In this document: positions 7,480-39,820 of the stretch, piece after piece
Layout of the letters: each line of letters begins with the position of its first letter
Position numbering within the stretch: the stretch's first letter is position 1
Source: Pontiellaceae bacterium B12219
Lineage (GTDB): Bacteria > Verrucomicrobiota > Kiritimatiellia > Kiritimatiellales > Pontiellaceae
Length of the DNA stretch: 54,460 nucleotides
Direction: 5' to 3'
NCBI GenBank assembly: GCA_029432795.1
Contig: JARNMJ010000028.1
Span: forward strand, 1 to 54,460
Position numbers and translations under genes: made by a program
The notes under the pieces: model-generated
What the model was told of the DNA's origin: nothing
The model's input: only the letters and a program-made list of their open reading frames with translations
Databases searched by the model: none

Positions 7480-8172
7480 CTACATTAGAAACAGACGGCG
7501 AATAAAGAGCAGGCCGCCGCCAAAAGCCGCAATCAACCCCATCGTCGCCGGTTCCGGAATCGTATTCACCGTAAGGTTATCCAGAACAACCGTGTTTCCT
7601 GTACCGGTGGAAGGATCGTTGCTGTTGGCAAAAACCAGACCGATATACTGGTCTGTTCCGTTATAGTTAAAGGTGAAAGTCGCAGTACCGTTGGCGTTAA
7701 TGTATTGTTCTGCCCCCAGCGCACCGATTGTTGCTGTTCCGGTTGCAATCGGATCGGCTCCGGTAGACTGGGCTCCATGAAGATCCAAACTTACCGAATT
7801 TGAGGCATCCACACCCGTCGCAGCGTATGCTTGAAAAATCGCTTCTGAATCCGTGCCAGCTGAAAAGTCCGCCGCAGCAACCTTAACAGTAACGAGTCCG
7901 GTGGCCCATCCGGCGGCATCGAGCCAGATGCCGGAACCCCGGAACCTATTCGCAGAAGTATTACCAAGCGTCAGGACATCATTGTTAACACCCACACCAT
8001 TGCTTGAACCAAACCACTCGTTGGTAGAGATATCCGGCGTAGCGCCGCCCAGTACGAAAGCACCGTTACCCGAATTATACGGCACACTGAAATCAGTGCT
8101 ATACACCAGAGACGCCTGTGCAAGGCCCACCACCATCATGGCAACTCCTGCTGTCCATATTGTTTTTTTCAT
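7480..8172 (-). CDS. PEP-CTERM sorting domain protein, 230 aa
   Basis: This is a small exported protein. It has a signal peptide (residues 1-20), a mature part rich in Gly, Thr, Asn and Asp predicted to be all-beta (about 21-200), and a C-terminal PEP-CTERM signal. The signal is PEPATMGL, then a hydrophobic segment (about 210-223), then Arg-Arg near the end. By family knowledge, such proteins are processed by an exosortase and often end up in the exopolysaccharide or envelope; the exosortase is not in this window. The ATG at 8172 has GGAGG 5 bases upstream. It lies between two hairpins that look like terminators, so it may be transcribed alone or by read-through from the upstream 777-residue protein. 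Its function is unknown; the fold could be a jelly-roll carbohydrate-binding module. Confidence 0.9.
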   Translation of the reverse strand: MKKTIWTAGVAMMVVGLAQASLVYSTDFSVPYNSGNGAFVLGGATPDISTNEWFGSSNGVGVNNDVLTLGNTSANRFRGSGIWLDAAGWATGLVTVKVAAADFSAGTDSEAIFQAYAATGVDASNSVSLDLHGAQSTGADPIATGTATIGALGAEQYINANGTATFTFNYNGTDQYIGLVFANSNDPSTGTGNTVVLDNLTVNTIPEPATMGLIAAFGGGLLFIRRLFLM

Positions 8173-8250: not shown

Positions 8251-10584
8251 TTAGTTCTGCTGAACTTCCAATTGGATAAACTTCGAATTCGGCGTGGCTT
8301 CGGTGCGGTTGGTCACCGTCTTATAATTATCAACAACCGCCGACTCGCCCACGAAGGATACATCGCCCGTGTCCCAGATCGGATCAAAGGGCAGCGAGGT
8401 TTTGGTTCCCAGCGAAAAGGACAGAGAGGAATCTCCGGCACGCTGATCAGAAACAATATAGAAATAATCCGTTCCCCCGTCATCGGCCGTGTAGGTTTTA
8501 GGCGAAACCTCAGCGGCATCGTCAATGGTCGGATTTCCGCCCAGCGCGTATTCCATCAGATTATTGAGTCCGTCGGGTTCCACATCCGTTTCCGGAAGCG
8601 CATCATCACCGGTCAGACCGAATTCCTGAGCCCAACCGAGAAACCCATCGACCGTGATCGTGAGAACAGCGGTATCCGTCTCCATATCCACCGTAATTTC
8701 CGCGGTGACGCCGTCGGCAAAGTTGGTGATGACGTAGGGAGTTGAATTCGTCGGGAGAGAGTTAATACTCCCGGTAAACAGCGGAATTTCGGCGCTTCCA
8801 CCATTATAGTTTGAACCGTCCACCAGAATCGTGCCGGCCGCAAGCTGAACGTAGGTGGGGCAGTTCACCGCGCTCAAAGCAGAACCTCCACCGGGCGCAA
8901 ATTCAAACACAAAATCAGGAGCAATATTTAATCGTTGAATCGAGATGGATGCCGCATCCCCGATGACTTTAAATTCACCGGAAAAATGGTTTCTTCCAGT
9001 CAGTGCAACCGTTCCGCCGCTGATTTCAACATCGGGGGTAAATGTCAGCACATCACCGCCGGCCGATCCCGTGCTGCTCCAGGTTCCGGACTCCAGGGTA
9101 AGAAGACCATCACCAGTAATGAACATATCGTTATCATCGGTGGTATTGTAGATCAGTGTTCCGCCGTTGATAACCATTTGACCATTCGTATGGATCGTAC
9201 CGTTTTCGCGGGTTGTCAGCGTTCCGCCCGACAACGTGTAGACCGAGTTTGATGCGGAAACTCCCGATGCATGACCGATATCCAATGCCGTGATGTCAAC
9301 AGAACCCAACGTCTGATTCACAAAACCATAATTATCCGAAGCCCCGCCGAGTGTCATATAATCGGCATTCAGGAAATCAGCGCCAATGTTCAATATCGAA
9401 CCGTCGCCCCGAACAATTGTACCCCAGGAAAACTCGCCCGTGAAGTTCGTGATCACATCGACCACAGATGCGCCCTGAATGAGGGCCTTGTCAGCAGCCA
9501 ATGTGCCGGGAACACGTCCCAGATTCCAGTTTGTCGCAGTGCCCCATGCTGTACTTTCATAACCCCGGAATGCATTTGCCTCTCCTGCCGGGAAGCTAAT
9601 TGATGCACTGATCGGCATAAAATTCGTTCCGCTTGTTCCCCCGCCGGTTTCAGTCCATGCAAAGGCAACCAGCCCGGTGGCCATTTCGCCGGCCGTCAAA
9701 TTAGCAACTGCATTGTCAAACTTGAACGCCAATTCGGTCGTTCCGTCCGGCAGCGTTTGCGGCGTTGCGGAAACAACACTAAAGGCTCCGACATCCGATT
9801 CGTCTGAAATGGTAATAGTCACATCCACGGTCGTATCAGATATAACGACTGCATCGACCGTTCCGGTGGTTGAGCCCGTTCCAATGACATGGGACATCGT
9901 CAATTCCTCCGGAGTAAGCAGAGTTGTCTGAACACCGGTAATCGGCGCGCTATGCAACGCGAACACTAAATCAGCAAGAACATTCGTACTCGCTTCTTCG
10001 AAGGGGAGCCCGCCTGTTGCCGGCAGATTGTCCTGAACCAGTAATTCCCCTCCTGCATAGCCTCCGGCCGCGTTATCGGCCCACCAGATACGGTGGTCCC
10101 CCTGGTCCGGCGTAGTCCAATAGAGCTGGAACGCATAGTCACCGGCAGGCAGCGACAAAGCAGAATCAAGATTGAATGTATAATAGTTTCCATCGCTGAA
10201 TGTGAAACCGGCCACGTCTATAGAGGTAAGAAGGCTCGTGGCGCCCACCACATGATTGCTTGCTGTTGTGTCGTCATAACTTCCGATCCATAACTCCAGC
10301 TCATGGGTGCCTGAAGCCGCGATCGACTTATTCCTGCCGACCCCCATCTGAATGGTGATGGCCGCCAGCGTTTCCGGGCTGGATAAGGTGAAACTTTGGC
10401 CAGCGCCAACATGCAATGTATCTTCATTGCGCATAATCTGCGTGCCACCATCCGTAATCTGCTGCGATTGGCCGGGAATTATATCCTGCGTTGGAAATGC
10501 TGTATTTTCCTGAATTGTTACCGCCTGAGCGGTCAACCCGCTCAATAGCGCGGCCAGTGTGGATAGAACCAGTGACTTTTTCAT
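8251..10584 (-). CDS. Large secreted beta-helix / autotransporter-repeat-like surface protein, 777 aa
   Basis: A signal peptide (residues 1-21, ending AQA) is followed by an N-terminal all-beta domain (about 25-210), a short Ig-like region (about 215-330), and a long stretch of Gly/Thr/Asn-rich repeats (about 335-620). These repeats resemble the stacked turns of parallel beta-helix or autotransporter passenger proteins (segments such as LSGGTLTT and VINGGTLIYN). The last 130 residues begin WAQEFGLTGDDALPETD, followed by DGLNNLMEYALGGNP. I recognise this C-terminal module from secreted proteins of Kiritimatiellota, Verrucomicrobiota and Lentisphaerota. There is no PEP-CTERM motif, although the neighbour has one. 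A good AGGAG site precedes the ATG. The probable role is adhesion or glycan contact at the cell surface. No catalytic motif is visible. Confidence 0.85.
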   Translation of the reverse strand: MKKSLVLSTLAALLSGLTAQAVTIQENTAFPTQDIIPGQSQQITDGGTQIMRNEDTLHVGAGQSFTLSSPETLAAITIQMGVGRNKSIAASGTHELELWIGSYDDTTASNHVVGATSLLTSIDVAGFTFSDGNYYTFNLDSALSLPAGDYAFQLYWTTPDQGDHRIWWADNAAGGYAGGELLVQDNLPATGGLPFEEASTNVLADLVFALHSAPITGVQTTLLTPEELTMSHVIGTGSTTGTVDAVVISDTTVDVTITISDESDVGAFSVVSATPQTLPDGTTELAFKFDNAVANLTAGEMATGLVAFAWTETGGGTSGTNFMPISASISFPAGEANAFRGYESTAWGTATNWNLGRVPGTLAADKALIQGASVVDVITNFTGEFSWGTIVRGDGSILNIGADFLNADYMTLGGASDNYGFVNQTLGSVDITALDIGHASGVSASNSVYTLSGGTLTTRENGTIHTNGQMVINGGTLIYNTTDDNDMFITGDGLLTLESGTWSSTGSAGGDVLTFTPDVEISGGTVALTGRNHFSGEFKVIGDAASISIQRLNIAPDFVFEFAPGGGSALSAVNCPTYVQLAAGTILVDGSNYNGGSAEIPLFTGSINSLPTNSTPYVITNFADGVTAEITVDMETDTAVLTITVDGFLGWAQEFGLTGDDALPETDVEPDGLNNLMEYALGGNPTIDDAAEVSPKTYTADDGGTDYFYIVSDQRAGDSSLSFSLGTKTSLPFDPIWDTGDVSFVGESAVVDNYKTVTNRTEATPNSKFIQLEVQQN

Positions 10585-20098: not shown

Positions 20099-20188
20099 AT
20101 GGGTACCATCAAGAAATGGCGTAAAACTAAAATGTCGAATCACAAACGTCGCAAACGCAGACGTGCAGATCGTCATAAGAAAAAATAA
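20099..20188 (+). CDS. 29-residue basic ribosomal protein, AURKAIP1/COX24 (bL38-like) type
   Basis: This tiny gene encodes a very basic protein (MGTIKKWRKTKMSNHKR followed by RKRRRADRHKKK). The pattern K-M-x-x-HKRRKR-x-R-x-x-RHKKK matches the short AURKAIP1/COX24-domain proteins of Bacteroidota, one of which has been described as ribosomal protein bL38. Its role would be to bind rRNA. The start is certain: AGGAG lies 6 bases before the ATG, 40 bases after hisG. A good terminator follows, so it is probably co-transcribed with hisG. It is easily missed by gene callers because of its length. The assignment rests on motif similarity only. Confidence 0.8.
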   Translation: MGTIKKWRKTKMSNHKRRKRRRADRHKKK

Positions 20189-20414: not shown

Positions 20415-22994
20415 TTATCGTTTTCTGAACAGGCCGGCCAGCACCACGGTAACGATCAGGGCGGAAGCAATGCCCACAATCAGAACATTATCCTGAATCC
20501 AGGATCTTTGCTGCTCAACAACCGGTTCTGTTTTAACCGGGGGTTCTGCTGCCGGTTCCTCCGACGGAACGTCTTCAACAACCACGGTCTCAACCTCTTC
20601 CTTTGAGGCGTCCTCGTTGACTTCAGGAAGAGCTTCCACCACTCCCGCCGGGATTTCCGGCTCCTCATTCCATGTCTTACACAAAACGATCGTGATGCCC
20701 GACCTCAGGTTAGCAACAGGGAACTTCACCAATTGACCGGAAACCAGATCTTTGGAACCGAGAAACTCCTCTGGAATATTCACCCGGAAGGTTTCCGAAT
20801 CGTCACAATTCATGGCAATGAAATAGGGTCCGTACGTCATGGTATAGAGTTGAGCCCTACCGGCCTGCAGGTGTTCGTCGCCGACCTTATAGTTATCATC
20901 GCCTTTCACCTTGGCAATGGGATATTCAACCCCCTCCATTGCCTGATAGATCCCCTGCTGCGTGTACCACCCCTCTTCACGACCACGGCTGAATTCCATA
21001 TTCGTTCGTTCGGGAATCGTATACACCTTCCCGCTGTCTTCAAAAACAGTTTCAATATTAACAATGGAGTCCCGCTCCATATAAGGCGTCATATAATGGA
21101 CACGCGCCAGATTATTGACGGCATGCCGCGCCCGCCAATAGAGTGATGCATAAAAAATCATTTCCCGATCCTTAAACGCCAGCACACCATTCCCCGGATC
21201 AGCAAACACAAAATCCGGCTGGCCGGGCGTCATTGGAAGGCGGTACGGCTGCGGCTCCTGTGAGGCAACGATTTCATACCGTTCCGGCACCCCCAGCAAA
21301 TAAGTCTTGGAATTGGTATGCCGGTGCGCCATCCGCTCTTTCACCGCAGCAAAAAACTGATTATCCTCCAGCATCTGCTGGCCATAGCCCAACAGCACCC
21401 GATCTCCGGTTGCCACCGCAACGTCGAATGCACCACCATCGCGGCCATTGGTCTGGTCGTATATCACCCCGCCCGGATATTTCCAGTCGCGCCAGCCGAT
21501 CAGGGCTTCCTGATTCATACTCCGATAGCCATCTTTATCCATCAACGGATAGCGGAAAGGCGCCCGCGCCCGGATCATCTTAATCAGCTGTGCTTTAATG
21601 CGCGGATCGCCCTCTTTATCCGGAGCCGGCTTGGTTGCTTCATAAATGGCCACACCGGAATCCGAAATAATTTCACCGTATGCCCCCACGTAGCCAAGCT
21701 CTTTTGTCAATGCCTGCTCGGTCAGAAGCATCTTGTTTTTACCCTCTCTCCAGTCGGGCCTCGCCCGCTCGTCCCAGCTTCCGCTGAACGGTTCCAGGCC
21801 CATGGCCTCATACAGCATCAGCCGCGCCTTCTCTTCCGGCCATGCTTTTGAGGGATAGATTCTGGCGATCGCCAGATTGCAATAATAGGTATTCTGGTCC
21901 TTGATCATGCACTGGTTTGTGTAGGAGCGACGGCCCTCCCCGGCGGCGGAACTGTTGTGATTCCGCGAGGCCTCCATCAGTTCCGCCCAGGCTTTCCGGC
22001 GCTTCCTGCTTGTGCCCGGCACATCTTCATCCAGCCAGGGCTCCAGGTCTTTATATCTCAACCGGATGGCATCACCGATCGGCCCCTTGAAAATCCACCG
22101 CACGCCCTCGATTTTCCCGTCATTATCGCGGAACTCCAGATAGTGGGCATCAATCGCTTCCACAATCCGTTCAAGTGCCAGCGGGTTCTGATACGCAGTA
22201 TTCCAGGAAGTTTCGTAGGCATACGCGAGGTACTGAATATTGTACTCATGTTTTCTACCGCCGCGGGCCATCTCCATATCGGACCGATCATTGAGTTCTT
22301 TCTTCAGCTCTTCGAGCACCTCAATGCCGGGTTCCGGACGTACCGGAATATCGACCGGCGGTGCACCCTGAACTTCATCTTCCAAGGGTTGGAAACAGGC
22401 ATCGGTATGAACATAGGCCCGATAGATCCCGCGCGACGGTTCAGTCATCTTATGTTGATAATCGTCAATCTTCGATGCATAGCCGTTGATGCCGCCCTGC
22501 CCTTCAATCGTAATCTCGATCTCCGTTTTGCCCTTGGTCATGTGAATCGGCAGTGGCCGGGTCGCGTATAAAAAACGGCCGGGATAGCGCGGGAGGTCAT
22601 ATTTCATGATGTCGAGCATGTCGATTGCACCAAGGTGGCGGGTCCCCAGCTGCTTCCCCTCCACATAGAGACACAACCGCAATTCGTGCTCATCATCGCT
22701 GCAGGTATCCCCGCCCCAGAACTTAGCCGTGAAATAGTTGGGCTTCTCCGGATCAACCTTCATCATGAACGTAATTTTTCCGCCCTGCCAGTTTGGCTCT
22801 GCTTCCGGCAGAAGCCGGCGCGCCTTTAACCCCAGTGCCCCGTCAACCACATCGCTCAGAACGGGTTCAATCCGATGTTCCTGCTCCGATGCTGAATTAC
22901 CGAACTGAACCGCATCCACCAGTCCTGACTCGGCAAAAACCACCGTGCTGATCGCATAGAAAAAAAGGAATAACCAAACGTGTAACTGCTTCAT
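20415..22994 (-). CDS. Secreted, C-terminally membrane-anchored protein of unknown family, 859 aa
   Basis: A signal peptide (residues 1-21) precedes an N-terminal beta-rich domain (about 30-215). A large, mostly helical domain (about 235-770) follows, with many aromatic and acidic residues (segments SRNHNSSAAGEGRRSY, QTNGRDGGAFDVA, ERMAHRHTNSKTYLL). Its layout resembles the alpha/alpha-toroid lyases and glycosidases, but I cannot name a family. After it come about 55 residues rich in Glu, Pro and Val, a single transmembrane helix (about 833-855) and the tail LFRKR. This is a stalk-and-anchor arrangement, so the enzyme would stay tethered to the membrane. A codon run in the middle (FQPLE) is an intact TTCCAA palindrome. 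It is last in the long minus-strand cluster, after S5 by 132 bases, and has its own promoter. I infer a role in glycan breakdown from context. Confidence 0.8.
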   Translation of the reverse strand: MKQLHVWLFLFFYAISTVVFAESGLVDAVQFGNSASEQEHRIEPVLSDVVDGALGLKARRLLPEAEPNWQGGKITFMMKVDPEKPNYFTAKFWGGDTCSDDEHELRLCLYVEGKQLGTRHLGAIDMLDIMKYDLPRYPGRFLYATRPLPIHMTKGKTEIEITIEGQGGINGYASKIDDYQHKMTEPSRGIYRAYVHTDACFQPLEDEVQGAPPVDIPVRPEPGIEVLEELKKELNDRSDMEMARGGRKHEYNIQYLAYAYETSWNTAYQNPLALERIVEAIDAHYLEFRDNDGKIEGVRWIFKGPIGDAIRLRYKDLEPWLDEDVPGTSRKRRKAWAELMEASRNHNSSAAGEGRRSYTNQCMIKDQNTYYCNLAIARIYPSKAWPEEKARLMLYEAMGLEPFSGSWDERARPDWREGKNKMLLTEQALTKELGYVGAYGEIISDSGVAIYEATKPAPDKEGDPRIKAQLIKMIRARAPFRYPLMDKDGYRSMNQEALIGWRDWKYPGGVIYDQTNGRDGGAFDVAVATGDRVLLGYGQQMLEDNQFFAAVKERMAHRHTNSKTYLLGVPERYEIVASQEPQPYRLPMTPGQPDFVFADPGNGVLAFKDREMIFYASLYWRARHAVNNLARVHYMTPYMERDSIVNIETVFEDSGKVYTIPERTNMEFSRGREEGWYTQQGIYQAMEGVEYPIAKVKGDDNYKVGDEHLQAGRAQLYTMTYGPYFIAMNCDDSETFRVNIPEEFLGSKDLVSGQLVKFPVANLRSGITIVLCKTWNEEPEIPAGVVEALPEVNEDASKEEVETVVVEDVPSEEPAAEPPVKTEPVVEQQRSWIQDNVLIVGIASALIVTVVLAGLFRKR
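22380..22394. repeat. Perfect TTCCAA-N3-TTGGAA palindrome inside a coding sequence
   Basis: TTCCAAGGGTTGGAA lies in the anchored-protein gene, where the sense strand reads FQPLE. Confidence 0.8.
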
Positions 22995-23073
22995 AATGCT
23001 GACATCGCCTCCAGATAGAAAAATTAGCGTACAGTGCTACCAGAGGAATCATACTTCAAACAGTTCGCAACGG

Positions 23074-23102
23074 ATTACACTGTTAACTTATCCACCGTTC
23101 AA
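23074..23102 (-). promoter_or_regulatory. Sigma-70-type promoter of the anchored-protein gene
   Basis: On the minus strand, TTGAAC and TGTAAT are separated by 17 bases, in the 132-base gap upstream of the gene starting at 22994. The leader would be about 70 bases. The last gene of the cluster can thus be expressed on its own. Confidence 0.5.
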
Positions 23103-23126
23103 CTGCCGCAGTTACATCCGTTTTTT

Positions 23127-24902
23127 TTAGAGCTTTTCAATGTAAAGATAGTAGGCCGGATGAACCCGGTTGCCGCTGTCGATCAGCTGCGCTTCGAGAT
23201 CATATTTTCCGGCAGGGATATGCCCTTTAAAGACCACCTCTTCCTGTCCGTCCCTGATTTTCTGCGACTTGGAAATGCTGGCCACATAGAGCCTGGCTTC
23301 CGTGAAATCGTCTTTCACACCGGCCGGAGCGGTCTGCTCCACTTCCAGCCGGCCTTCCTCTGCCGGGAACGTTGCATTAATTGCCAGGCCGCTTTCCCGC
23401 GGGAACCGACGCAGAGCAATCGAATAGTCGCCATCTTCAACAAATTCGATTTTCCATTTACCGGTCGATTGAGCCCCCTCAATCGCTCCATGCTGATGCC
23501 AGGCCGGTGTATAACGCCCCACAATCTGGTCATGTGCAGAAAGCCGGCTTGGATTTTCTTTCGGCGAACCCACTTTAATATAAGCATAGCGCTCGTCGAC
23601 CCCGTCTTCCAAAAAGGAATTCCACCAGGTTTCATAGCCTTCGGCCAAACGGCTTGCCACTTCCGGATGCTGATCGAATACATTGTTTTCCTGACCCCGG
23701 TCCTCGGAAATATTGTACAGTTTATTCCCGTCCACCAGACGCCAGTTGTCATCCATCACCACATATTTTTTATATTTGATCAGATTCTGTTCCCGCTGCG
23801 TATCAATATAAAGGATACGATTTTCCCACGCCGGATTTTCCTCCGTCAGCAACGGCTTCAGGCTTTTACCATCCAGCGGGTTCTTCGGATTAAACTGGAG
23901 TCCCAACAAATCCACAAAGGTCGGCAGCAGGTCATAGTTGGCCACCAGTTCATCAATATCCTTGCCGCCCGTCAGCTCCCCGTTCGGCCAGCGAATAAAC
24001 AGCGGCACCCGGTGCCCGCCATCGTACTGACTGCCCTTCCCGCCTTTCAGCCCGGCGTTATAAACTGAGCGTCCGGCCGAGGTCCCGTTATCTGTCGTGA
24101 AGATCAGAATGGTATTCTCCGTCAGCCCCAGCTCATCCAGCTTATTTTCCAAGATTTGAAAGTTATCATCGATGTTGGAAATCATTCCGTAGAATCGCAA
24201 CAGACGCGCATTCAGCTCCTTGTATTCCTCCCCCTGATACAGGTCGTAATATTCCTTCGGCAGGTTATACGGCGAGTGCGGCGCATTCAGCGAGAGATAG
24301 CAGAAAAACGGCTTATCCTTGTTGGTTTCGATAAACTTTATGGCTTCCGCGAAAAAGACATCCGTGCAATACCCTTCATAACTCTGCAGCTCACCGTTGT
24401 GCCAATAGGTATCATCAAAATAGTCATTTTCCCAATAGTCCGGACCCTGCCCGATACCCCCGCCGCCATGCATCACCACTTCATCAAAACCCCGGTCCTG
24501 CGGACGGAAAGGATAGTTATCGCCCAGATGCCACTTCCCGAACATGCCGTTCACATAGCCGTTCTGCGCAAAGACTTCCGGCAGGATCACCTCGTCTTCA
24601 AACAGGAGCGAGCGCCCATTGATCGTGTGATACACATTCACGCGATTGCAATGCCGCCCCGACATAATCCCGGCGCGGCTCGGTGCACAGGTTGTGCCCA
24701 CATGATAATTCGTAAACCGCACCGCCTGATCGTGAAATTTATCGATATTCGGCGTTTTAATATAGGGGTTGCCCGTACAGCCCAGATCGCCCATTCCCTG
24801 ATCGTCCGTAATCACAAACACCACATTCGGTTTTCCGCCGGCCGCCAGCAGAGAACTGCAACTGAACAGTGAAACAAAAGTAAGTAAGATAATCTTTTTC
24901 AT
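23127..24902 (-). CDS. Secreted S1-family sulfatase (S5), 591 aa
   Basis: This type I sulfatase has an N-terminal signal (about residues 1-21; LFSC at 12-15 could be a weak lipobox), metal ligands D33-D34 in VITDDQGMGD, and Cys72 in GTTCAPSR as formylglycine precursor. GKWHLGDNYPFRPQDRGFDE and a Gly-rich loop (MHGGGGIGQGPDYWENDYFD) form part of the substrate pocket; TTDNGT follows. The final 130 residues form an additional beta-sandwich (GKWKIEFVEDGDYSIAL through HPAYYLYIEKL). That loop and C-terminus set it apart from the other eight sulfatases, so it probably attacks a different sulfate position. I chose the ATG at 24902 (AAGGAAAAG upstream) over 24980, which overlaps S6. It follows S6 by 17 bases. 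Confidence 0.92.
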   Translation of the reverse strand: MKKIILLTFVSLFSCSSLLAAGGKPNVVFVITDDQGMGDLGCTGNPYIKTPNIDKFHDQAVRFTNYHVGTTCAPSRAGIMSGRHCNRVNVYHTINGRSLLFEDEVILPEVFAQNGYVNGMFGKWHLGDNYPFRPQDRGFDEVVMHGGGGIGQGPDYWENDYFDDTYWHNGELQSYEGYCTDVFFAEAIKFIETNKDKPFFCYLSLNAPHSPYNLPKEYYDLYQGEEYKELNARLLRFYGMISNIDDNFQILENKLDELGLTENTILIFTTDNGTSAGRSVYNAGLKGGKGSQYDGGHRVPLFIRWPNGELTGGKDIDELVANYDLLPTFVDLLGLQFNPKNPLDGKSLKPLLTEENPAWENRILYIDTQREQNLIKYKKYVVMDDNWRLVDGNKLYNISEDRGQENNVFDQHPEVASRLAEGYETWWNSFLEDGVDERYAYIKVGSPKENPSRLSAHDQIVGRYTPAWHQHGAIEGAQSTGKWKIEFVEDGDYSIALRRFPRESGLAINATFPAEEGRLEVEQTAPAGVKDDFTEARLYVASISKSQKIRDGQEEVVFKGHIPAGKYDLEAQLIDSGNRVHPAYYLYIEKL

Positions 24903-28885: not shown

Positions 28886-31771
28886 CTACTCGACCGACAG
28901 TTCCTGGAACGCGGAATTTTCTCCCCGCTCCGTAACCGGCGATGCCTGCCAGACGATCCAGCGGAATGAGCCCAGTGTATGACCCTTGCCAGCACGCAGT
29001 GTTACTCCGGTGAATGCACCCTGTTTCATTTCAGTGGTGTCAAATGAGCCCAGCGGAACAAATTTTGAACTGGCACTTAGATTCCAACCGGGATTTTTTT
29101 TCAAAGCACTGCCATAAAGCGTGACGCGCTGCGCACCACGGCTGCCACTCTGATTATACGTCCAGCTGGTAATTGCTGAAACCGGTTTGACGCTTCCAAG
29201 GTCCAGCATATACGCACCGCCGGATTCTCCATTGGCAAAAACGGGTCCGTAGCTTTCGGCCAGTTCGCCATCAACCAACACGGTCAGGGCATCATTTTTC
29301 GTGGGTTTATTGGCGGTCACTTTTCCAGCGGTTTGAACCGGTTTACCCGATGCTTTGACTTCCACAAACGGAACGTTCTTCAGGATCATTTCCTGCTCCT
29401 GCTGATTGCGAACGAACTTGATCGTATACGGCACATTACCGGCGGCCGTGTATGCCGTCAGAAGATCATCAATGTCTTTTACCTTCGCGCCGTTGAATCC
29501 CTGAATCAGATCGCCTTCCTTGAATCCGGCTTCGGCTGCAGCGGAGTTTTCCGGCACGGAAATCAACGCCACACCGCCATCTTCTTTACGTGTGCCATAC
29601 GCCGAAAACTCTTCCCCTTCCAGACCGTGCAACCGGACACCCAGCCAATGATAGCCAAGCGTCAGGGCCGTCGTTTCCGGAGGCTGACGCGGCTTGGTGG
29701 GTTCAAAAACCAACTCCGGAATCACCGGCGTTTCAGCAATCGCTTTGAGCGAAGCCTTCTTCACCCCAAACTGATCCATCGGAAAATTCTTAAATCCGAT
29801 TTCGAATGCGGGCGACCCGGCTTGAACCTGGAAATCACCGGCGGCCGGATCCACAAACAACGGATCGCCATTGATTGAATTCACGTCCCATTTGGACACC
29901 AGATACCGGTCTTTTTCATCAGGATACTTGGTGAAAAAGAGGTTTTCATCCACGCGTTTTCCTTTGGCTGTTTTACTTGGAACACTGGCCCCGCGCGGTG
30001 CGCGCATCACGATGTTCGCATAAAATTCGTCGCCGCTGTTGTTGTACCAGACATGCGGATGGAATCCGTTATTGATCATGATGTTGTTCCACGCCCGGCG
30101 GCGGAATCCTTCGCGGAACTTGAGCCCGCCATTGAGCATCAGATTGTTGTAGATATCATAATTGCTTGAACCATCGTCGAGGTCGATATCCCAGCCGTGG
30201 TCACAACGCCAACGGCTGTTGCGGATGGTTGTGGTATACATTGCATCGAGAAACGGAAGATCAGGTTCTTTGTCGATCACCCGCTGCGATTCGGAGCGAT
30301 CGCTATGCCAGAACCGATCCCGCCCCCACGAATTGAACGAACCGTGGTCGTGCGTTTCCAGCACCGTATCAAACACATCGCACCCTTCAATCAGATGACC
30401 GCCCCAGCAACCGTCGCCGATATTTATGCCGGCTCGCGCAGTGTCATACACCGAGCAATCCCGGATCGTAATTTTCATGGCCATTTCAATCTGCACTCCG
30501 GCAGGCTGACGCTCAACGCGGCCGATACCATGAATCAGGCAGTCTTCCACCAGACCGTCTGCCGGATAGTTTTCGGTCTTCGGGCCGACCGTACGATCGA
30601 TTTTATCGAGGTCGTTTTTCTCGCGGTATTCAAACAGCGGATCGCGCACGGCATCGGGATCGCCGACAAAACAAACGCCGCTTGCTCCGGTGTCGTGAAT
30701 ATGACACCCCCGCACGACTGTGCCGCGATTGTAGTTATTCACGAAGATCGCGTTGCCGCCCACCTGATCAAACTCACAGTCGAGAATATAAATATGTTCC
30801 GTTCCGGTCAGCATAAATGCGCCGCCACGATAGATCGCCCAGTCCGAACGCAGCATCTGCTCATCGGTTTCCATGAAGGTGCGCGCGGCATGGCGCACCA
30901 CAAATCCCTGCAGGGTGATATGTTTAACCGGCTTCTCAATGGAACCTTCAAACTCCACCAAATGACGCAGACGGACCACTTCAACGGTTGCTGATTTCAG
31001 ATCCGTTCCGGCTTCGGGCATATAATAGAGCGTATCGGTTTTTGCATTGTGGAACCATTCGCCGGGCGCATCGAGCTCCTCGAAAATATTTTCGACCATA
31101 CGGAACTCATCGTGCATGCCCATTTTGCGGTTGTTCTGCCAACCGCCTTCGTAGGTCACTTCGCCGTTCGAACCTTTCCCGGTGATTCGATAATGATATC
31201 CACCCCAGCGTGCCCGGTGCATGGCATGAATATATCCACCGGTCGGGTCGGCCCAGTTTGCGGCGCGTTCCTTGGAAAAGGCGTCGGCCGCATAGCCCTG
31301 ATAGGCGGCGGTGGTTTTGCTCGCATCGTAGTTGGGATAACGCGCCATGCGCTGATTTTTGCCATTGACGAAAAGCTGATCAATCTCCAGCCCCTTCGGG
31401 GTTTTGGCCTGAACGATTCCATCTTTATACGGTGTCCATTTCAGATCCAGTATCGATCCTCCGCTGAGAACCGCTCCGCCTTCGCTCTGCGCGATGTAGA
31501 CCACCGGAGCGGATTCAGTTCCGGAATCGGCCGGCGTGAAAACGAGCGTCTCCGGCAGATAATATACCCCGTCCGCCACATTCACCTGAACCGGTTCTTT
31601 TCCAACCCTTGGACGGATCAGATCGCGGGCCCTCGCCAGCGATGCCACCGGAGCATGCTCCGTTCCCTGATTCGAATCATTACCCGTTGGGCTCACATAA
31701 ATTTGCATTGCACTTACCGTACCGGAGGCAGCCACCAGGCCAACCGCCAACCACTTTGTTTCTTTTCTCAT
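28886..31771 (-). CDS. Secreted GH141-like parallel beta-helix enzyme with an internal PDZ domain, 961 aa
   Basis: A signal peptide (residues 1-21) is followed by MQIYVSPTGNDSNQG, the usual start of secreted right-handed beta-helix enzymes. The segment LFVNGKNQRMARYPN and repeated motifs such as DCEFDQVGGNAIFVNN up to about residue 650 resemble family GH141, whose studied members include an alpha-L-fucosidase and a xylanase. With fucose genes nearby, fucosidase is the better guess. Around residues 700-790 is a PDZ-like domain (GVALISVPENSAAAEAGFKEGD, then LIQGFNGAKV), normally found in proteases and not in glycosidases. The last 150 residues resemble a discoidin-type module (YMLDLGSVKPVSAITSW). 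AGGAGAA precedes the ATG. The gene lies 113 bases after the beta-propeller gene. The GH141 assignment is by motif and is tentative; a lyase or another beta-helix hydrolase is possible. Confidence 0.75.
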   Translation of the reverse strand: MRKETKWLAVGLVAASGTVSAMQIYVSPTGNDSNQGTEHAPVASLARARDLIRPRVGKEPVQVNVADGVYYLPETLVFTPADSGTESAPVVYIAQSEGGAVLSGGSILDLKWTPYKDGIVQAKTPKGLEIDQLFVNGKNQRMARYPNYDASKTTAAYQGYAADAFSKERAANWADPTGGYIHAMHRARWGGYHYRITGKGSNGEVTYEGGWQNNRKMGMHDEFRMVENIFEELDAPGEWFHNAKTDTLYYMPEAGTDLKSATVEVVRLRHLVEFEGSIEKPVKHITLQGFVVRHAARTFMETDEQMLRSDWAIYRGGAFMLTGTEHIYILDCEFDQVGGNAIFVNNYNRGTVVRGCHIHDTGASGVCFVGDPDAVRDPLFEYREKNDLDKIDRTVGPKTENYPADGLVEDCLIHGIGRVERQPAGVQIEMAMKITIRDCSVYDTARAGINIGDGCWGGHLIEGCDVFDTVLETHDHGSFNSWGRDRFWHSDRSESQRVIDKEPDLPFLDAMYTTTIRNSRWRCDHGWDIDLDDGSSNYDIYNNLMLNGGLKFREGFRRRAWNNIMINNGFHPHVWYNNSGDEFYANIVMRAPRGASVPSKTAKGKRVDENLFFTKYPDEKDRYLVSKWDVNSINGDPLFVDPAAGDFQVQAGSPAFEIGFKNFPMDQFGVKKASLKAIAETPVIPELVFEPTKPRQPPETTALTLGYHWLGVRLHGLEGEEFSAYGTRKEDGGVALISVPENSAAAEAGFKEGDLIQGFNGAKVKDIDDLLTAYTAAGNVPYTIKFVRNQQEQEMILKNVPFVEVKASGKPVQTAGKVTANKPTKNDALTVLVDGELAESYGPVFANGESGGAYMLDLGSVKPVSAITSWTYNQSGSRGAQRVTLYGSALKKNPGWNLSASSKFVPLGSFDTTEMKQGAFTGVTLRAGKGHTLGSFRWIVWQASPVTERGENSAFQELSVE
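31600..31613. repeat. Partial TTCCAA palindrome copy in the GH141-like gene
   Basis: TTCCAACCCTTGGA lacks only the last A of the 15-base pattern. Confidence 0.5.
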
Positions 31772-33091: not shown

Positions 33092-36000
33092 TTATTTGGA
33101 ATTGCTTTCCTCTCTCACCAGCTTCCCGTTCATGAACTCCCGAACGGAGATGTTTGCTTCGCCGGTTTCGCCGTCGAGATCGGCAATGGTAATTTCCTGA
33201 ACCCGGCCATCGGTCAGTTCAACCACCAGCTCGTTGGCACTATTTGCCGTTACCGATTTAACCATCGAGTCCGTTTCATACGGCTCAATAACCGACAGAT
33301 ACCGCGCATCCTTTCCGGTGCTGCGAACCGCCATGGTTTTACGGCGTTGCGACTCATCTCCCATCGGAAAATCTCCGCCGAGCGTGGCTTTAAATGCCAC
33401 AGCATCCATACCGGAAAGGTCAAGGGCAATCGATCCGGATGCCTTGCTGTTTTTCGGTTGGCCCGGCAGCGAATGTTCCATCAACTCACCCTGAATTTTA
33501 ACCGGCCCGCCATAATAATCTTCACCGGCTCTTTTCGGTTCGATAATGTTTTCATTCTTTACCGGAAGCGATGCAATGAACACCTCGCTTCCATCTTTCA
33601 GAATTAACCGGGCATTGCCCCAGAAGATTGTGTTGTTGCGGGGATTTTCCGTCTTTGTGGTCAGGACCAATTCCTTCTTCCCGGTCAGGTCCGCACTCAC
33701 TTCTTTGGCTCCCAGAATCCAGGCTCCGGTACTGTCGTCGACCAGCGTTTCCCCATCGGCTGTCACGCTGTACCATACGCGTTTGTTAACGCGGAAACTC
33801 TCCGCCGCCGTTCCGATCATGATTTCTTTCTGTTTCGGCCAGGCACTGAAGATATCCGTTTTCAGCACACCGTCTTCACAGAAATAGGTGCGGCATCCTT
33901 CGTTATCCGCCCCTTCTCCCCACCGCATCTCAAAGGTGGTGCGAGAGGTTCCGTCGACCTGATACCAGTCGCAATCCGTAATGAACTGTGCGGCGCCCAA
34001 CGGGTCGGTATTCATCTGTCCGTCATGCCGGATCAGTTCAGCATTTCCACCGGTAATTCCACGAAACCCTTTCATCTGCATCAACCAGTCAAACGTATGT
34101 TCTTCCTCGGCTTTCTGATAATCCGCCAGCACGATATAGTCATCCATCATAATCATCAGGCGGCGCTGCAGGATATCCTCCGTAAAGTCGGTACAGAGGC
34201 CATATTCGGGCGCATCGTCGGGCACAAAGATCGAACGGTTTTCATTTTCCGTCTGCTCTTTAAAGCTCATGCCGTACCGGTCGGAATAGGTCATCCCGCC
34301 ATAGGGCGGATGACTCCATTTGGAGATACTTTCCACCGCTGCCGCCTGGAAGAGATCGCCCGTGTAATACAGTTTGCGGAAGCTTTCTCTCGGCTCCTGC
34401 ATTTTCTGATCAACCACCACCATATTCTTCGTCATCGAGGTTTGAACCAGGAATTTGTAGAGATACGAACCGTAGCCGTACCAGAACATTTCCGGGTTAT
34501 AGAAACTGCGCCCATAGCGCATCATACTGATAAAATTCAGGCGGTCGAAATGTCCGTGGTGTCCACCGTGTGAACCATAGTGCAGTACCGCCTGAATCTG
34601 TTCGCGCTGCTCACGTCCCTTCGTCTGGGAACGCAGCTGCACGGCTCCGATATTGTCGGCATAGGCGGACTGTTTCATCTTTTCGGAAGTGACCTGCGGC
34701 AGATCGGGAACACCATAGAGCAGATCCCGCGAATCGCCGCGATTGATGACCGCCGCATATTCCGGGTCGCGATAAAGATAGTACGCCAGCTCATACGGTT
34801 TTCCGGTCACCTTGTCTTCTTTGGCATCATTCACCCCGAAAAGTACTCCGCGATAATCCAGAAATGGAATGACCGCATCCCACATATCTTTAATGCCGAT
34901 ATTGTTCTGGTTGATGGAGCCCCATTTCTCGAACTGCATACCATGCAGACCGCCTTCGCGCCGGCTTTTCTGCAACGAGAAAAACGGCGTGGTACCAATC
35001 AGAAAACGTTGGTCTTTCAGATTCATGCCCCAGGGTTCGAGCGCAATCGCCACTTCAGAAAATTCGCTGGCAACCCAGAGATTATACCCTACGGCACATT
35101 CGTACCACCAGCCATCACCCATGACGCCGTGATAGATCTGTGCATAAATTCCTGAGGGCGCGTTGAGAAGCTGATCGGCCAGATACCAGTCCTGTAATGC
35201 CAGAGCACAATAAAAGGCACCCACCAGTTCCGCCACATTCCAGTTGCTGATTCCGCCGCGTGTATTGCCCTTAAGCGTCCGGTTAATATAGAGGCGGAAA
35301 GTATTTTCGACGAGTTCATGCTCTTCCGCCGTCAAGACACCGGAGTCGCGGATCATATCATAACTGCGCGCTGCGCCCTGGAAAAAGACGCCTTCCGCCA
35401 CAAACGAATTACCACCGCCATGCAACGTGACCGGATAGCCATCCTCCAGGCTGATCAAGCGGCGGAACAGTTTGGCACATTTTTCGGCATAGGCCTCATT
35501 GCCGGTCAACTGATAGGCAATGCCGGTCTCGTATAAGCGGTCGCCCTCGCCCTTGCTGAAAATCGGGTTATGTTCGCCGGTTCCCTCGATTGTAGAAACG
35601 GGCGCACCGGCAGGGACCTTCCATTCCGAGGCTTTTTTCTCATAGTCGGCCAATCCTTTTTTTGCCCAGTCATAGTTTGCGATTTTATCTTTCACTTCCT
35701 GCCACTTGTCGGCGGTGAAAACAATATTCGGTGTCGGCACCCTCACGGCCGTAAAAAATTCAATGGATACAGCTGCAGACCCCTGCCCATTGGGTACTGC
35801 AGTAATGATCTGTTTTTCACGTGCACCTTCCGGCAGAGAAGCGGGGATCGCAACGTCAATCACAACGGTTTGCACCGCACCGGGCGCCAACTCAAAAACG
35901 GAAGGCTCCATCGAAACAATCATCGATTCCCAACCCAGTTTTTCAACAAGTAATTGAACACCCTGTTTTTCATCCGTGGTATTCCCGACCTCCATCGTAT

Positions 36001-36589
36001 ACCGAACCGTGTCGCCCGCCGGAGCTGCGCGCCCCTGCACCGCCGATTCAATCGCAACCCGTTCTCCTTTAGTCAGTTGAACCGATCTTATTTTCAGATT
36101 TTCAGTTACATCCGAGCTAACCGCAATCTCCAGTTCTTTAACCGCCTGCAAGGCGTTCCCCAGCTGACCGTCATCCACATCAAAAAGCTTCCAGGGCAGA
36201 AAAACCGGTTGCCACCCCTTTCCCTGAATCAGGACCTTGGCCGTACTGGCGGCATTCAGCTCCGAGTGATCCGCCGGATCCGTTTTGAATGTGGCCCTCA
36301 CCTCAACCGGAGAACTCTTATCCAGATACACCTCAAAGGACAGCCCGGCATAATCGTACCAGTCCGCCGCATCCCCGCGAAAATCACGCATCAACCCCGG
36401 ATAAACGCGGTTCATATTTTCATACGTGTACGAAATGGGCTCGCCGCTGTTCAAAATCGCTGCGCCCTTTTTGACTTTTTCAATGCCGCTCCAATCCGAC
36501 CAATCCTCTGAACCAACCGGTATGCGCAAAGCGGCCTGAGCCATTAACGGCAAAAGAAGGGCTAAAAAAACAGTTCTGGTTTTCATCAT
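33092..36589 (-). CDS. Large secreted heparinase II/III-like polysaccharide lyase, 1165 aa
   Basis: This is the longest gene of the window. After a signal peptide (about residues 1-19) come a jelly-roll-like domain (about 20-190) and an Ig-like segment (about 190-300). An alpha/alpha-toroid follows (about 310-650, with WNVAELVGAFYCALALQDWY and GDGWWYECAVGYNLW), then the heparinase II/III beta-sandwich domain, which begins near HYGSHGGHHGHFDRLNF at about residue 676. The His-rich segment and following Tyr residues would act in beta-elimination at a uronic acid. The Trp- and Tyr-rich toroid lines the cleft. Two adjacent ATG codons (36589, 36586) follow AGGAG. A 131-base gap separates it from S7, so it may have its own promoter. 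The presence of lyases implies uronic acid in the substrate, unless these act on an atypical polymer. No PL family can be assigned by eye. Confidence 0.85.
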   Translation of the reverse strand: MMKTRTVFLALLLPLMAQAALRIPVGSEDWSDWSGIEKVKKGAAILNSGEPISYTYENMNRVYPGLMRDFRGDAADWYDYAGLSFEVYLDKSSPVEVRATFKTDPADHSELNAASTAKVLIQGKGWQPVFLPWKLFDVDDGQLGNALQAVKELEIAVSSDVTENLKIRSVQLTKGERVAIESAVQGRAAPAGDTVRYTMEVGNTTDEKQGVQLLVEKLGWESMIVSMEPSVFELAPGAVQTVVIDVAIPASLPEGAREKQIITAVPNGQGSAAVSIEFFTAVRVPTPNIVFTADKWQEVKDKIANYDWAKKGLADYEKKASEWKVPAGAPVSTIEGTGEHNPIFSKGEGDRLYETGIAYQLTGNEAYAEKCAKLFRRLISLEDGYPVTLHGGGNSFVAEGVFFQGAARSYDMIRDSGVLTAEEHELVENTFRLYINRTLKGNTRGGISNWNVAELVGAFYCALALQDWYLADQLLNAPSGIYAQIYHGVMGDGWWYECAVGYNLWVASEFSEVAIALEPWGMNLKDQRFLIGTTPFFSLQKSRREGGLHGMQFEKWGSINQNNIGIKDMWDAVIPFLDYRGVLFGVNDAKEDKVTGKPYELAYYLYRDPEYAAVINRGDSRDLLYGVPDLPQVTSEKMKQSAYADNIGAVQLRSQTKGREQREQIQAVLHYGSHGGHHGHFDRLNFISMMRYGRSFYNPEMFWYGYGSYLYKFLVQTSMTKNMVVVDQKMQEPRESFRKLYYTGDLFQAAAVESISKWSHPPYGGMTYSDRYGMSFKEQTENENRSIFVPDDAPEYGLCTDFTEDILQRRLMIMMDDYIVLADYQKAEEEHTFDWLMQMKGFRGITGGNAELIRHDGQMNTDPLGAAQFITDCDWYQVDGTSRTTFEMRWGEGADNEGCRTYFCEDGVLKTDIFSAWPKQKEIMIGTAAESFRVNKRVWYSVTADGETLVDDSTGAWILGAKEVSADLTGKKELVLTTKTENPRNNTIFWGNARLILKDGSEVFIASLPVKNENIIEPKRAGEDYYGGPVKIQGELMEHSLPGQPKNSKASGSIALDLSGMDAVAFKATLGGDFPMGDESQRRKTMAVRSTGKDARYLSVIEPYETDSMVKSVTANSANELVVELTDGRVQEITIADLDGETGEANISVREFMNGKLVREESNSK

Positions 36590-36641
36590 AAATACTCCTG
36601 TATATTTCAAAAATTCATCCGAACTAAATGGGTTAATTACT

Positions 36642-36695
36642 GTGCTGTTGTATGGTTTTTTACGCGCCGAAACTCCGCCTCCCCGCAAACAGCAC
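36642..36695. other. Inverted repeat between S7 and the large lyase gene
   Basis: GTGCTGTT (36642-36649) and AACAGCAC (36688-36695) are exact complements across a 38-base spacer, in the 131-base gap between minus-strand genes. It may be a terminator-like hairpin after S7 or a regulator site for the lyase gene. Confidence 0.35.
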
Positions 36696-36720
36696 TGCAT
36701 ATATCTCTACACTCTACGCA

Positions 36721-38179: not shown

Positions 38180-39820
38180 CTACTTCAGCTGGGTGATGCG
38201 GTTATTCGACCCCTTGTCTTCAACCGGACCCAGCGACTTAATTTTGCAGTTCCGGACATTGGGTTCCAGAATCAGCTTGGCCGAGGTGTAGTTTTCAATC
38301 GTTGAATCAATGAGCGGTTTTCTGCCGCCGCAGCTCAGCACATTGATTTCCTCGGGAAGCGGCTTAGTGGTTCCATCACGAAAAATGAAGGTGCTTCGAT
38401 CTCCGCAGATGATGCCCAGGCTGGATCGGGGAGTCGGTTGAAATCCCTCCGGCGGATCGAGCACCGTGAGTTCGAATTCCGCCTTATACGGCAGATCGCC
38501 GCGAGTCAGGTTAAAGACCGGATTGTAGGAAAGGTCCGCAAAACAGTTTTTCATGACCACATCGCCTTCATCGCCGACGCTCAGGTCATAGGCAAAATCA
38601 CCGGCCTCTCGAACGGTTACATTTTCCAAAATCACATCGCCTTCCGGACACAGCAGCTGGAAGCATCCGCGAAAACGTTCAACAGTGGTATCAATCACGG
38701 TTACATTCCGTACATCGTTATAGGCACGGATCCCGTCTTCGGTCAGCGGAATCATCCAATCGCGCGGAATCGGTTGCTTGGAACGGTATAACATTTCAAA
38801 GTCGTTATCGACCGCACGTCCGGCCTTCTCTTTAAAGATATCGTTCGTCGGCCGCAGCGTTCCGGAAAATAAACAGTCTTTCACCAGCACCCCGTCCACA
38901 TTATGCAAATGCAGACCATGCCCGAAGGACTGCTGATAAATCTTACAACCGATCAACTCGGTATCGTTTGCATTCAGAATACTCATAAAGGAGTGTTTGT
39001 TCAGCCGCCCGTAGGAACCGCTTCCTTTCCCGTAAAAATCGGTATACCCGAAAGGTATCGATCCCTTGATTACAAAGGTGCAATTTACAAACCGGTTGCC
39101 GTCATTACAGATTTCAAATTCGCATTCGGTCACCCTGTAATCCGGATAGGGCTTATCAAGCACATTCCGGAAATACCCGCCGATGAAGGTATTGTTCGCG
39201 CCGTTGATGTGCCAGGAGTCGGCCACGTGTGCCTTTCCCGACATCGTGCCCTGCAACGAAACGGGTGTTTCAATCACAACGCCGCGCAGATCGAAATAGT
39301 TATTCGATCCGGTAACGGCAAAGATGTGCTCCTGCGGGCTCACATCCGGCCCCCTCCCCGTGCTCTCTGCTTTGTGGATAGCCGTGAACACAATCGGCTC
39401 GTCAGTTTTTTCGGCCCGGTAAACACCGGGTTTCATCCGGATCTTCAGCCCGTTTTTTTTGATCGCCGCACGAAACTGATCCAGCGAATCGATCAGAATA
39501 TAACCGGGACGGACTTCAAAATCATCCGTCACCGGCTCCGGCTCGGGAGCCGGAGTAAAGATCAGTTCCATCGGCGGATTTTCCGCCAGCTGCAGTCCGA
39601 CATTCTTCTCCGGTTCCGGCGGTTGTTCCGGCTCAGGAGCAATCTCCTGTTCCTGCACCGGTTCTGCTTCTTTTTCCATCACACTTGCAAGCGGTTCTTC
39701 CAGAATCGGCTCAGACTCCACTTCTGCAACAGAAACCGGTTCCTGCTTTTGTTCCTGCTGCTTCAGCACAAAAACTGCACCACCGGCACAGACCGCCACA
39801 AGTATGAGGAATTTTTTCAA
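38180..39820 (-). CDS. Membrane-tethered parallel beta-helix protein, 546 aa
   Basis: The N-terminus (residues 1-20, MKKFLILVAVCAGGAVFVLK) is a hydrophobic anchor without a clear cleavage site. It is followed by about 75 residues very rich in Glu, Pro, Gln and Val, a TonB-like extended stalk. From about residue 105 a right-handed beta-helix begins (DSLDQFRAAIKKNGLKIRMK, then GVYRA) and runs to the end. Repeated coils include ANDTELIGCKIYQQSFGHGL and NVDGVLVKDCLFSG. This layout would hold an enzyme at the outer face of the inner membrane, reaching into the periplasm. Lyase, epimerase or sulfated-glycan hydrolase activity is possible; no family is certain. The start is TTG with GAAGG 9 bases upstream, inside the end of the preceding dehydrogenase gene (4-base gap), so translation is probably coupled. 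Confidence 0.8.
   Translation of the reverse strand: MKKFLILVAVCAGGAVFVLKQQEQKQEPVSVAEVESEPILEEPLASVMEKEAEPVQEQEIAPEPEQPPEPEKNVGLQLAENPPMELIFTPAPEPEPVTDDFEVRPGYILIDSLDQFRAAIKKNGLKIRMKPGVYRAEKTDEPIVFTAIHKAESTGRGPDVSPQEHIFAVTGSNNYFDLRGVVIETPVSLQGTMSGKAHVADSWHINGANNTFIGGYFRNVLDKPYPDYRVTECEFEICNDGNRFVNCTFVIKGSIPFGYTDFYGKGSGSYGRLNKHSFMSILNANDTELIGCKIYQQSFGHGLHLHNVDGVLVKDCLFSGTLRPTNDIFKEKAGRAVDNDFEMLYRSKQPIPRDWMIPLTEDGIRAYNDVRNVTVIDTTVERFRGCFQLLCPEGDVILENVTVREAGDFAYDLSVGDEGDVVMKNCFADLSYNPVFNLTRGDLPYKAEFELTVLDPPEGFQPTPRSSLGIICGDRSTFIFRDGTTKPLPEEINVLSCGGRKPLIDSTIENYTSAKLILEPNVRNCKIKSLGPVEDKGSNNRITQLK

Follow-up and report, generated by a model that had tools for sequence, protein, structure and literature searches.

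In the lyases of family PL8, to which the hyaluronate, chondroitin AC, and xanthan lyases belong, Asn349 functions as the neutralizer, His399 as the base, and Tyr408 as the acid (PMC11496695; His399 is that of the pneumococcal enzyme). The PL40 ulvan lyase employs a histidine of its β-domain as the base and a tyrosine of its toroid as the acid, and its catalytic set comprises an asparagine with the residue next to it, the tyrosine, and the β-domain histidine (PMC12915356). The protein under study here, P0001, is probably a secreted lyase that acts on uronate polysaccharides and belongs to an undescribed family distantly related to PL8, as we infer from its predicted fold class, its sequence relation to PL8, its conserved motifs, and the genes that surround it. 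It is encoded on a 54,460-nucleotide stretch of DNA, referred to as the window, which constitutes a whole contig of the 4.75-Mb draft genome of Pontiellaceae bacterium B12219. The features of the gene are listed in Table 1.

Table 1. Features of the P0001 gene and its product (positions are those of the window)
Feature	Position	Strand	Assignment or basis
859-aa protein P0001, ATG start	20415..22994	(-)	candidate founding member of an undescribed polysaccharide-lyase family
Signal peptide, residues 1-21	22932..22994	(-)	hydrophobic leader, end VFA/E (cut between A and E)
N-terminal β-sandwich, residues 22-200	22395..22931	(-)	model strands and hhalign to GH127-like β-sandwich
α/α-toroid, residues 215-580, PL8-like motifs	21255..22352	(-)	models, fold searches, hhalign to PL8
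Asn360 (followed by Gln361), candidate carboxylate neutralizer	21915..21917	(-)	conservation, loop shared with PL8 TGAN motif
Tyr439 in ELGYVGAYGE, candidate catalytic Tyr	21678..21680	(-)	aligned with PL8 GxYG
Arg477 and Arg481 (ARAPFR)	21552..21566	(-)	aligned with PL8 GRxxSR
C-terminal β-sheet domain, residues 590-773	20676..21227	(-)	models
His633 (RVHYMTP), near-invariant, in C-terminal β-sheet domain	codon 21096-21098	(-)	23/24 members
Glu/Pro/Val-rich spacer, residues 775-836	20487..20672	(-)	composition
C-terminal transmembrane helix and RKR, residues 837-859	20418..20486	(-)	hydropathy

The open reading frame was confirmed as real and is exactly as the first-pass annotation had described it, namely one encoding an exported protein with a Glu/Pro/Val spacer, a single transmembrane helix, and a terminal RKR. 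A ribosome-binding-like GGAGG lies 13 nt 5' of the ATG, and the third-position GC content is 0.62 as compared to 0.59-0.64 in the adjoining genes. The core of P0001, which consists of the ~750 residues between the signal peptide and the spacer, displays 31-74% identity over ~750 residues across many genomes. This conservation, together with the matching third-position GC, places the reading frame far beyond chance. The gene had also been credited with its own promoter, a claim that found no support: a consensus scan of positions 22900-23250 revealed no sigma-70-like site, and a co-directional sulfatase gene lies 132 bp ahead. A search for a terminator belonging to the gene itself found none.

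Searches with P0001 of Pfam (at E 1), NCBIfam, PHROG, and the PDB sequences yielded no family match, in keeping with the original statement that it falls into no recognized family. No description of the family was found in a literature search, CAZy itself lying outside that search. Judged by its sequence, P0001 is a member of a real and widespread family that none of the protein databases searched names. The family extends over the Kiritimatiellota, Verrucomicrobiota, Planctomycetota, Sumerlaeota, Bacteroidota, Pseudomonadota, and the haloarchaea. Full-length relatives of the core were located in eight GTDB-species contigs (from Pontiellaceae, Verrucomicrobiota, Planctomycetota, Sumerlaeota, Bacteroidota, and Betaproteobacteria) and in about a dozen of the 289 genomes of its own phylum, where six of the 19 genomes listed match weakly or via the N-terminal domain alone (five GH127-like cases). 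Core relatives occur in one or two of the 296 genomes of the phylum of Ohtaekwangia and are also carried by plasmids of Sphingobium and Halocatena. On the haloarchaeal Halocatena plasmid, three very divergent members are arranged in tandem (L063, 11827-23261). No relatives were found in viral contigs or phages.

The AlphaFold2 model of the whole core, constructed with nine sequences, consists of a β-sandwich, a helical toroid spanning residues ~225-579, and a C-terminal β-domain spanning residues ~595-773 (pLDDT 75.6, pTM 0.72), and that of the catalytic part alone has a pLDDT of 75.0 and a pTM of 0.73. The α/α-toroid that had been put forward for checking by structure prediction is indeed found in these models; according to the models and Foldseek, it is accompanied by an antiparallel β-sheet domain, a combination of the PL8 type. 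With the whole core as the query, PL8 lyases took the best 15 places in Foldseek (E 1e-5 to 2e-4). With the catalytic part, the best 35 PDB matches were polysaccharide lyases of families PL35, PL8 (mostly), PL33, PL39, and PL17 plus one uronyl epimerase, dermatan-sulfate epimerase, and unrelated proteins appeared below rank 35. VIA-align gave Z values of 12-15 against PL17, PL38, PL40, PL33, PL39, and GAG lyases, values that alone are not decisive because other toroids reach 10-14. The TM-scores lie low, at 0.3-0.4, which a different placement of the two domains may explain, and the active site loops are poorly modeled (pLDDT 35-50 around residues 425-442 and 496-520). Among full two-domain lyases, the best Foldseek match to P0001 is the PL35-type GAGase 8khv, and the best VIA match is the chondroitinase 9o3q. 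The GAGase-type glycosaminoglycan lyases 8khv and 8khw are those that we take to be PL35. These lyases and 9o3q differ from P0001, however, in that they contain ~580 residues, lack the N-terminal domain, and display no sequence match to it.

For the profile comparisons, PL8 was represented by 18 proteins from the same phylum and the P0001 family by 23-28 clean members. Match states were the columns of the query sequence, GH127 proteins were removed, and decoys and control families were added. A comparison based on an alignment that contained GH127 proteins was empty with one member set and gave a match with the other; it was rejected as unsafe because those proteins share the N-terminal domain alone. 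With hhalign, the family matched PL8 with a probability of 84-92 and E values of 8e-6 to 5e-7 in both full-length and catalytic-domain comparisons, and with a probability of 78 for the smallest toroid-only set, the match spanning residues about 234-466. The toroid profile scored a probability of 0.1 with reversed PL8 and of 0.1-0.6 with the toroids of GH88, heparinase II/III, and GH127. Part of the score against PL8 stems from a single helical block (LAxAYxxxW...), whose own similarity lets block-shuffled PL8 decoys climb as high as 61.

The N-terminal domain is related to the GH127-like β-sandwich (hhalign probability 97.5-98.0, E 8e-12 to 3e-13). The β-L-arabinofuranosidase-like GH127 proteins carry a β-sandwich homologous to that of P0001, whereas their toroid shows no sequence relation to the P0001 toroid. 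With PL8, P0001 has in common the toroid and β-sheet domains as well as the toroid profile match, but it possesses the extra N-terminal β-sandwich. The Pfam models for PL8 (Lyase_8 and relatives) matched neither P0001 nor any of nine family members. Because these curated models miss the family, and because the defining PL8 histidine is absent from it, the family is regarded as related to PL8 and not as a member. The two-domain architecture is also shared with the PL40 lyase Uly1040 (9vtk), PL17, and PL39; phmmer and profile searches against PL40, PL17, and PL39 chains among the PDB sequences, including 9vtk and 7bm6, gave no match.

In the hhalign alignment, the conserved family motif GYVGxYGE is positioned on the catalytic-tyrosine motif of PL8, YxGxYG. 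The family ARxxFR motif falls on GRxxSR in a less certain extension of the alignment, and the arginine pair has the same spacing as in PL8. Differences from PL8 include the glutamate that follows GxYG and ~20 extra residues between the asparagine and the tyrosine. Position 439 is a tyrosine in 20 of the 24 aligned members, the remaining four being likely inactive paralogs, position 360 is an asparagine in 21, and position 361 is a glutamine in all 24. Asn360 shares the loop before a helix with the PL8 asparagine (TGAN), offset by about three residues and not column-exact. The catalytic histidine that precedes the PL8 tyrosine is absent from the family, which displays L-T/S-K/R-E as compared to QH or an equivalent histidine in PL8. 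His633 is found in 23 of the 24 members, and the Sphingobium homolog has a tryptophan at this position. The spacing of Asn360-Gln361, Tyr439, and His633 is similar to that of the PL40 catalytic set, although the metal-site partners of PL40 were not identified in P0001. By analogy, His633 could act as a PL40-like base. Given the tryptophan of the Sphingobium protein, the tyrosine might also act alone, and there is a tension here in that this protein is the very homolog with the best lyase context.

Four paralogs (L016, L017, L029, and L035), retained at full length in genomes of the same phylum, are likely inactive. Of 59 columns that are invariant among 19 reference members, these proteins break only 6, 10, 11, and 4, whereas P0001 retains all 59. 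Tyr439 is replaced in all four (by Asp, Arg, Arg, and Cys), Asn360 in three (by Lys, Asp, and Asp), and Arg477 in two (by Glu in both). A loss centered on the equivalents of the PL8 active site, as these sequences suggest, would be the pattern expected of enzymes losing activity. In the tree, three of the paralogs form one clade and the fourth is separate, and so there were at least two independent events. One genome carries two paralogs without Tyr439 along with one intact copy.

The window contains genes for nine sulfatases, two GH95 enzymes, one GH35 enzyme, a GH141-like β-helix protein, a weak GH43-like protein, a sialate-esterase-like protein, sodium/solute and MFS transporters, and a LacI regulator; the sulfatases and glycoside hydrolases bear out the first-pass annotation of a sulfated-glycan locus. 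A 933-aa protein encoded at 44151-46952 (-) resembles Uly1040, the PL40 ulvan lyase, with a phmmer E value of 8.6e-45 to 9vtk. Pfam barely detects it, with Hepar_II_III_C below the cut-off. In Pontiellaceae B1224, which provides a second locus of the genus, the family homolog also lies near a PL40-like gene. The close relative B12227 keeps the order GH95, sulfatase, P0001 gene, without the second sulfatase of the window. No genes for KduI, KduD, or GH88 were found within the window; elsewhere in the genome, a different contig carries KduI and GH88 genes no more than 5 kb apart.

The neighbors of the Sphingobium homolog include a TonB receptor, an unsaturated-glucuronyl-hydrolase-like GH88, KduI, KduD, a LacY-type symporter, a LacI-like regulator, and a ROK kinase. 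The KduI matches the NCBIfam equivalog for 5-dehydro-4-deoxy-D-glucuronate isomerase, and the KduD is likewise an equivalog match. This GH88-KduI-KduD set is the route by which unsaturated uronates from lyase action are processed; a second lyase was not recognized in the Sphingobium stretch. Near the Ohtaekwangia homolog are GH97, GH39, and a heparinase-like protein, with a GH88 two genes downstream. The tandem members of Halocatena adjoin sulfatases, an α-L-fucosidase, and a GH172 protein.

Several other products of the window deserve mention. The 1202-aa protein encoded at 33092-36700 (-) gives weak FixG_C, NPCBM, and alginate-lyase matches; it may work together with P0001, since its relatives lie directly beside family members in two other genomes. 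The GH141-like parallel β-helix protein (28886-31771 (-)) is similar to BT_1002 (5mqp) and contains a DegP-like PDZ domain (residues ~706-797). The pairing is unusual, and the protein is conserved in B12227 and B1224. No Pfam match exists for two proteins, of 777 aa (8251-10584 (-)) and 546 aa (38180-39820 (-)), that are exported or linked to the membrane; relatives of the latter are found near family members in B1224. After hisG, a 29-residue, very basic reading frame is located at 20099-20188 (+) (MGTIKKWRKTKMSNHKRRKRRRADRHKKK), which presumably resembles the small proteins of the AURKAIP1/COX24 type.

The emphasis originally placed on the stalk and anchor of P0001 is misplaced. The 62-residue spacer is composed of 15 Glu, 11 Val, and 8 Pro among others, with a net charge of -15, and the helix that precedes RKR is strongly hydrophobic (mean Kyte-Doolittle 2.78). 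Within the window and the relatives retrieved, which define the scope of the survey, the spacer and helix are present in only two of the 24 aligned members, namely P0001 and a protein from Pontiellaceae B12227. The tail is thus not a family feature; the other full-length relatives are without it, and most stop near residue 773. In the tree, P0001 and the B12227 protein are sisters and the tail-less B1224 protein adjoins them, which suggests either a recent gain or a loss in B1224. As in PEP-CTERM proteins, a transmembrane helix is followed by basic residues at the C-terminus, and the genome encodes at least 11 PEP-CTERM proteins as well as an exosortase. The tail differs from theirs, however, in lacking the PEP motif, as was correctly observed before, and in matching no NCBIfam sorting-signal model. 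A 230-aa protein encoded at 7480-8172 (-) has a typical PEP-CTERM tail (IPEPATMGLIAAFGGGLLFIRRLFLM). The P0001 tail was also considered as a genome-wide sorting signal, an idea that was set aside when a tail search, a weak test for low-complexity sequence, found no second protein. The stalk and helix are a local addition that probably anchors the enzyme in the inner membrane, where in this species it would face the periplasm.

The predicted fold, the active-site motifs, and the neighboring genes indicate that seaweed-type polysaccharides are cut by elimination next to an acidic sugar, as in the hyaluronan and chondroitin lyases. A glycoside hydrolase built on the α/α-toroid, with Glu432, Glu396, and Asp366 serving as acid and base, would account for the strict conservation of these carboxylates, which exceeds that of Tyr439 or Asn360 (both glutamates in 24/24 members and the aspartate in 23/24). 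Moreover, toroids of GH88, GH105, and GH78 enzymes turn up farther down the VIA lists, and the locus is rich in glycoside hydrolases. We nonetheless regard a hydrolase as unlikely: there is no sequence link to the GH88 or GH127 toroids, the full toroid and β-sheet architecture fits lyases and not these hydrolases, and the paralogs that have lost Tyr439 and Asn360 retain the carboxylates.

Uronyl epimerases have the lyase fold and the Tyr/His chemistry in common with the lyases. An epimerase of the dermatan-sulfate-epimerase kind would abstract the C5 proton and leave the chain intact, and human dermatan-sulfate epimerase 1 is present in both fold lists (Foldseek rank 34; VIA Z 12.8). The family gene, however, resides in breakdown loci with sulfatases, GH95, GH88, KduI, and KduD and not in biosynthesis loci, which renders such a function quite improbable. 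It is hardly credible that P0001 is a non-catalytic surface glycan-binding or scaffold protein on a lyase fold. Some paralogs do seem to be without an active site, and the P0001 copy is predicted to be membrane-tethered, but every invariant residue is kept in P0001, and no Pfam glycan-binding family matches it.

For a uronate lyase, the preferred reading, we infer the following substrate, residue roles, and location. A uronic-acid-containing, and probably sulfated, polysaccharide would bind in the cleft that separates the toroid from the β-sheet domain of the putatively membrane-held enzyme. The substrate carboxylate would be neutralized by Asn360/Gln361, with Arg477/Arg481 nearby, and the bond on the uronate would be cut by β-elimination to yield a 4,5-unsaturated uronate end. 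Tyr439 would provide the proton to the leaving oxygen. The C5 proton may be removed by Tyr439 or by His633 of the β-domain, both of which are proposed as the base because the PL8 histidine is absent. In light of the sulfatases and the PL40-like gene, our best guess for the substrate is a sulfated, uronate-containing algal polysaccharide. The earlier suggestion of an undescribed glycan-active family is upheld by the toroid, the profile match, and the gene context, whereas the substrates proposed with it, sulfated fucans and galactans, need correcting because a lyase-like family should cut next to a uronic acid.

We consider the chances evenly balanced that this is a new family joining the toroid tyrosine motif of PL8 with a base from the β-sheet domain (or with the tyrosine alone), with natural inactive paralogs, and that its marine bacterial and haloarchaeal members act on sulfated uronate polysaccharides and its soil bacterial members on uronate polymers from plants or microbes. 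If the lyase reading is right, a family of unnamed function would gain an activity that can be tested by absorbance at 232 nm, as well as residues to mutate, and it would sit between PL8 and the PL17/39/40 lyases. Substrate screens with fucans or galactans alone could then miss the activity. The enzyme might also serve as a tool for analyzing uronate-containing algal polysaccharides, and it would supply a missing step in their breakdown by the sulfatase-rich Pontiellaceae and their relatives.
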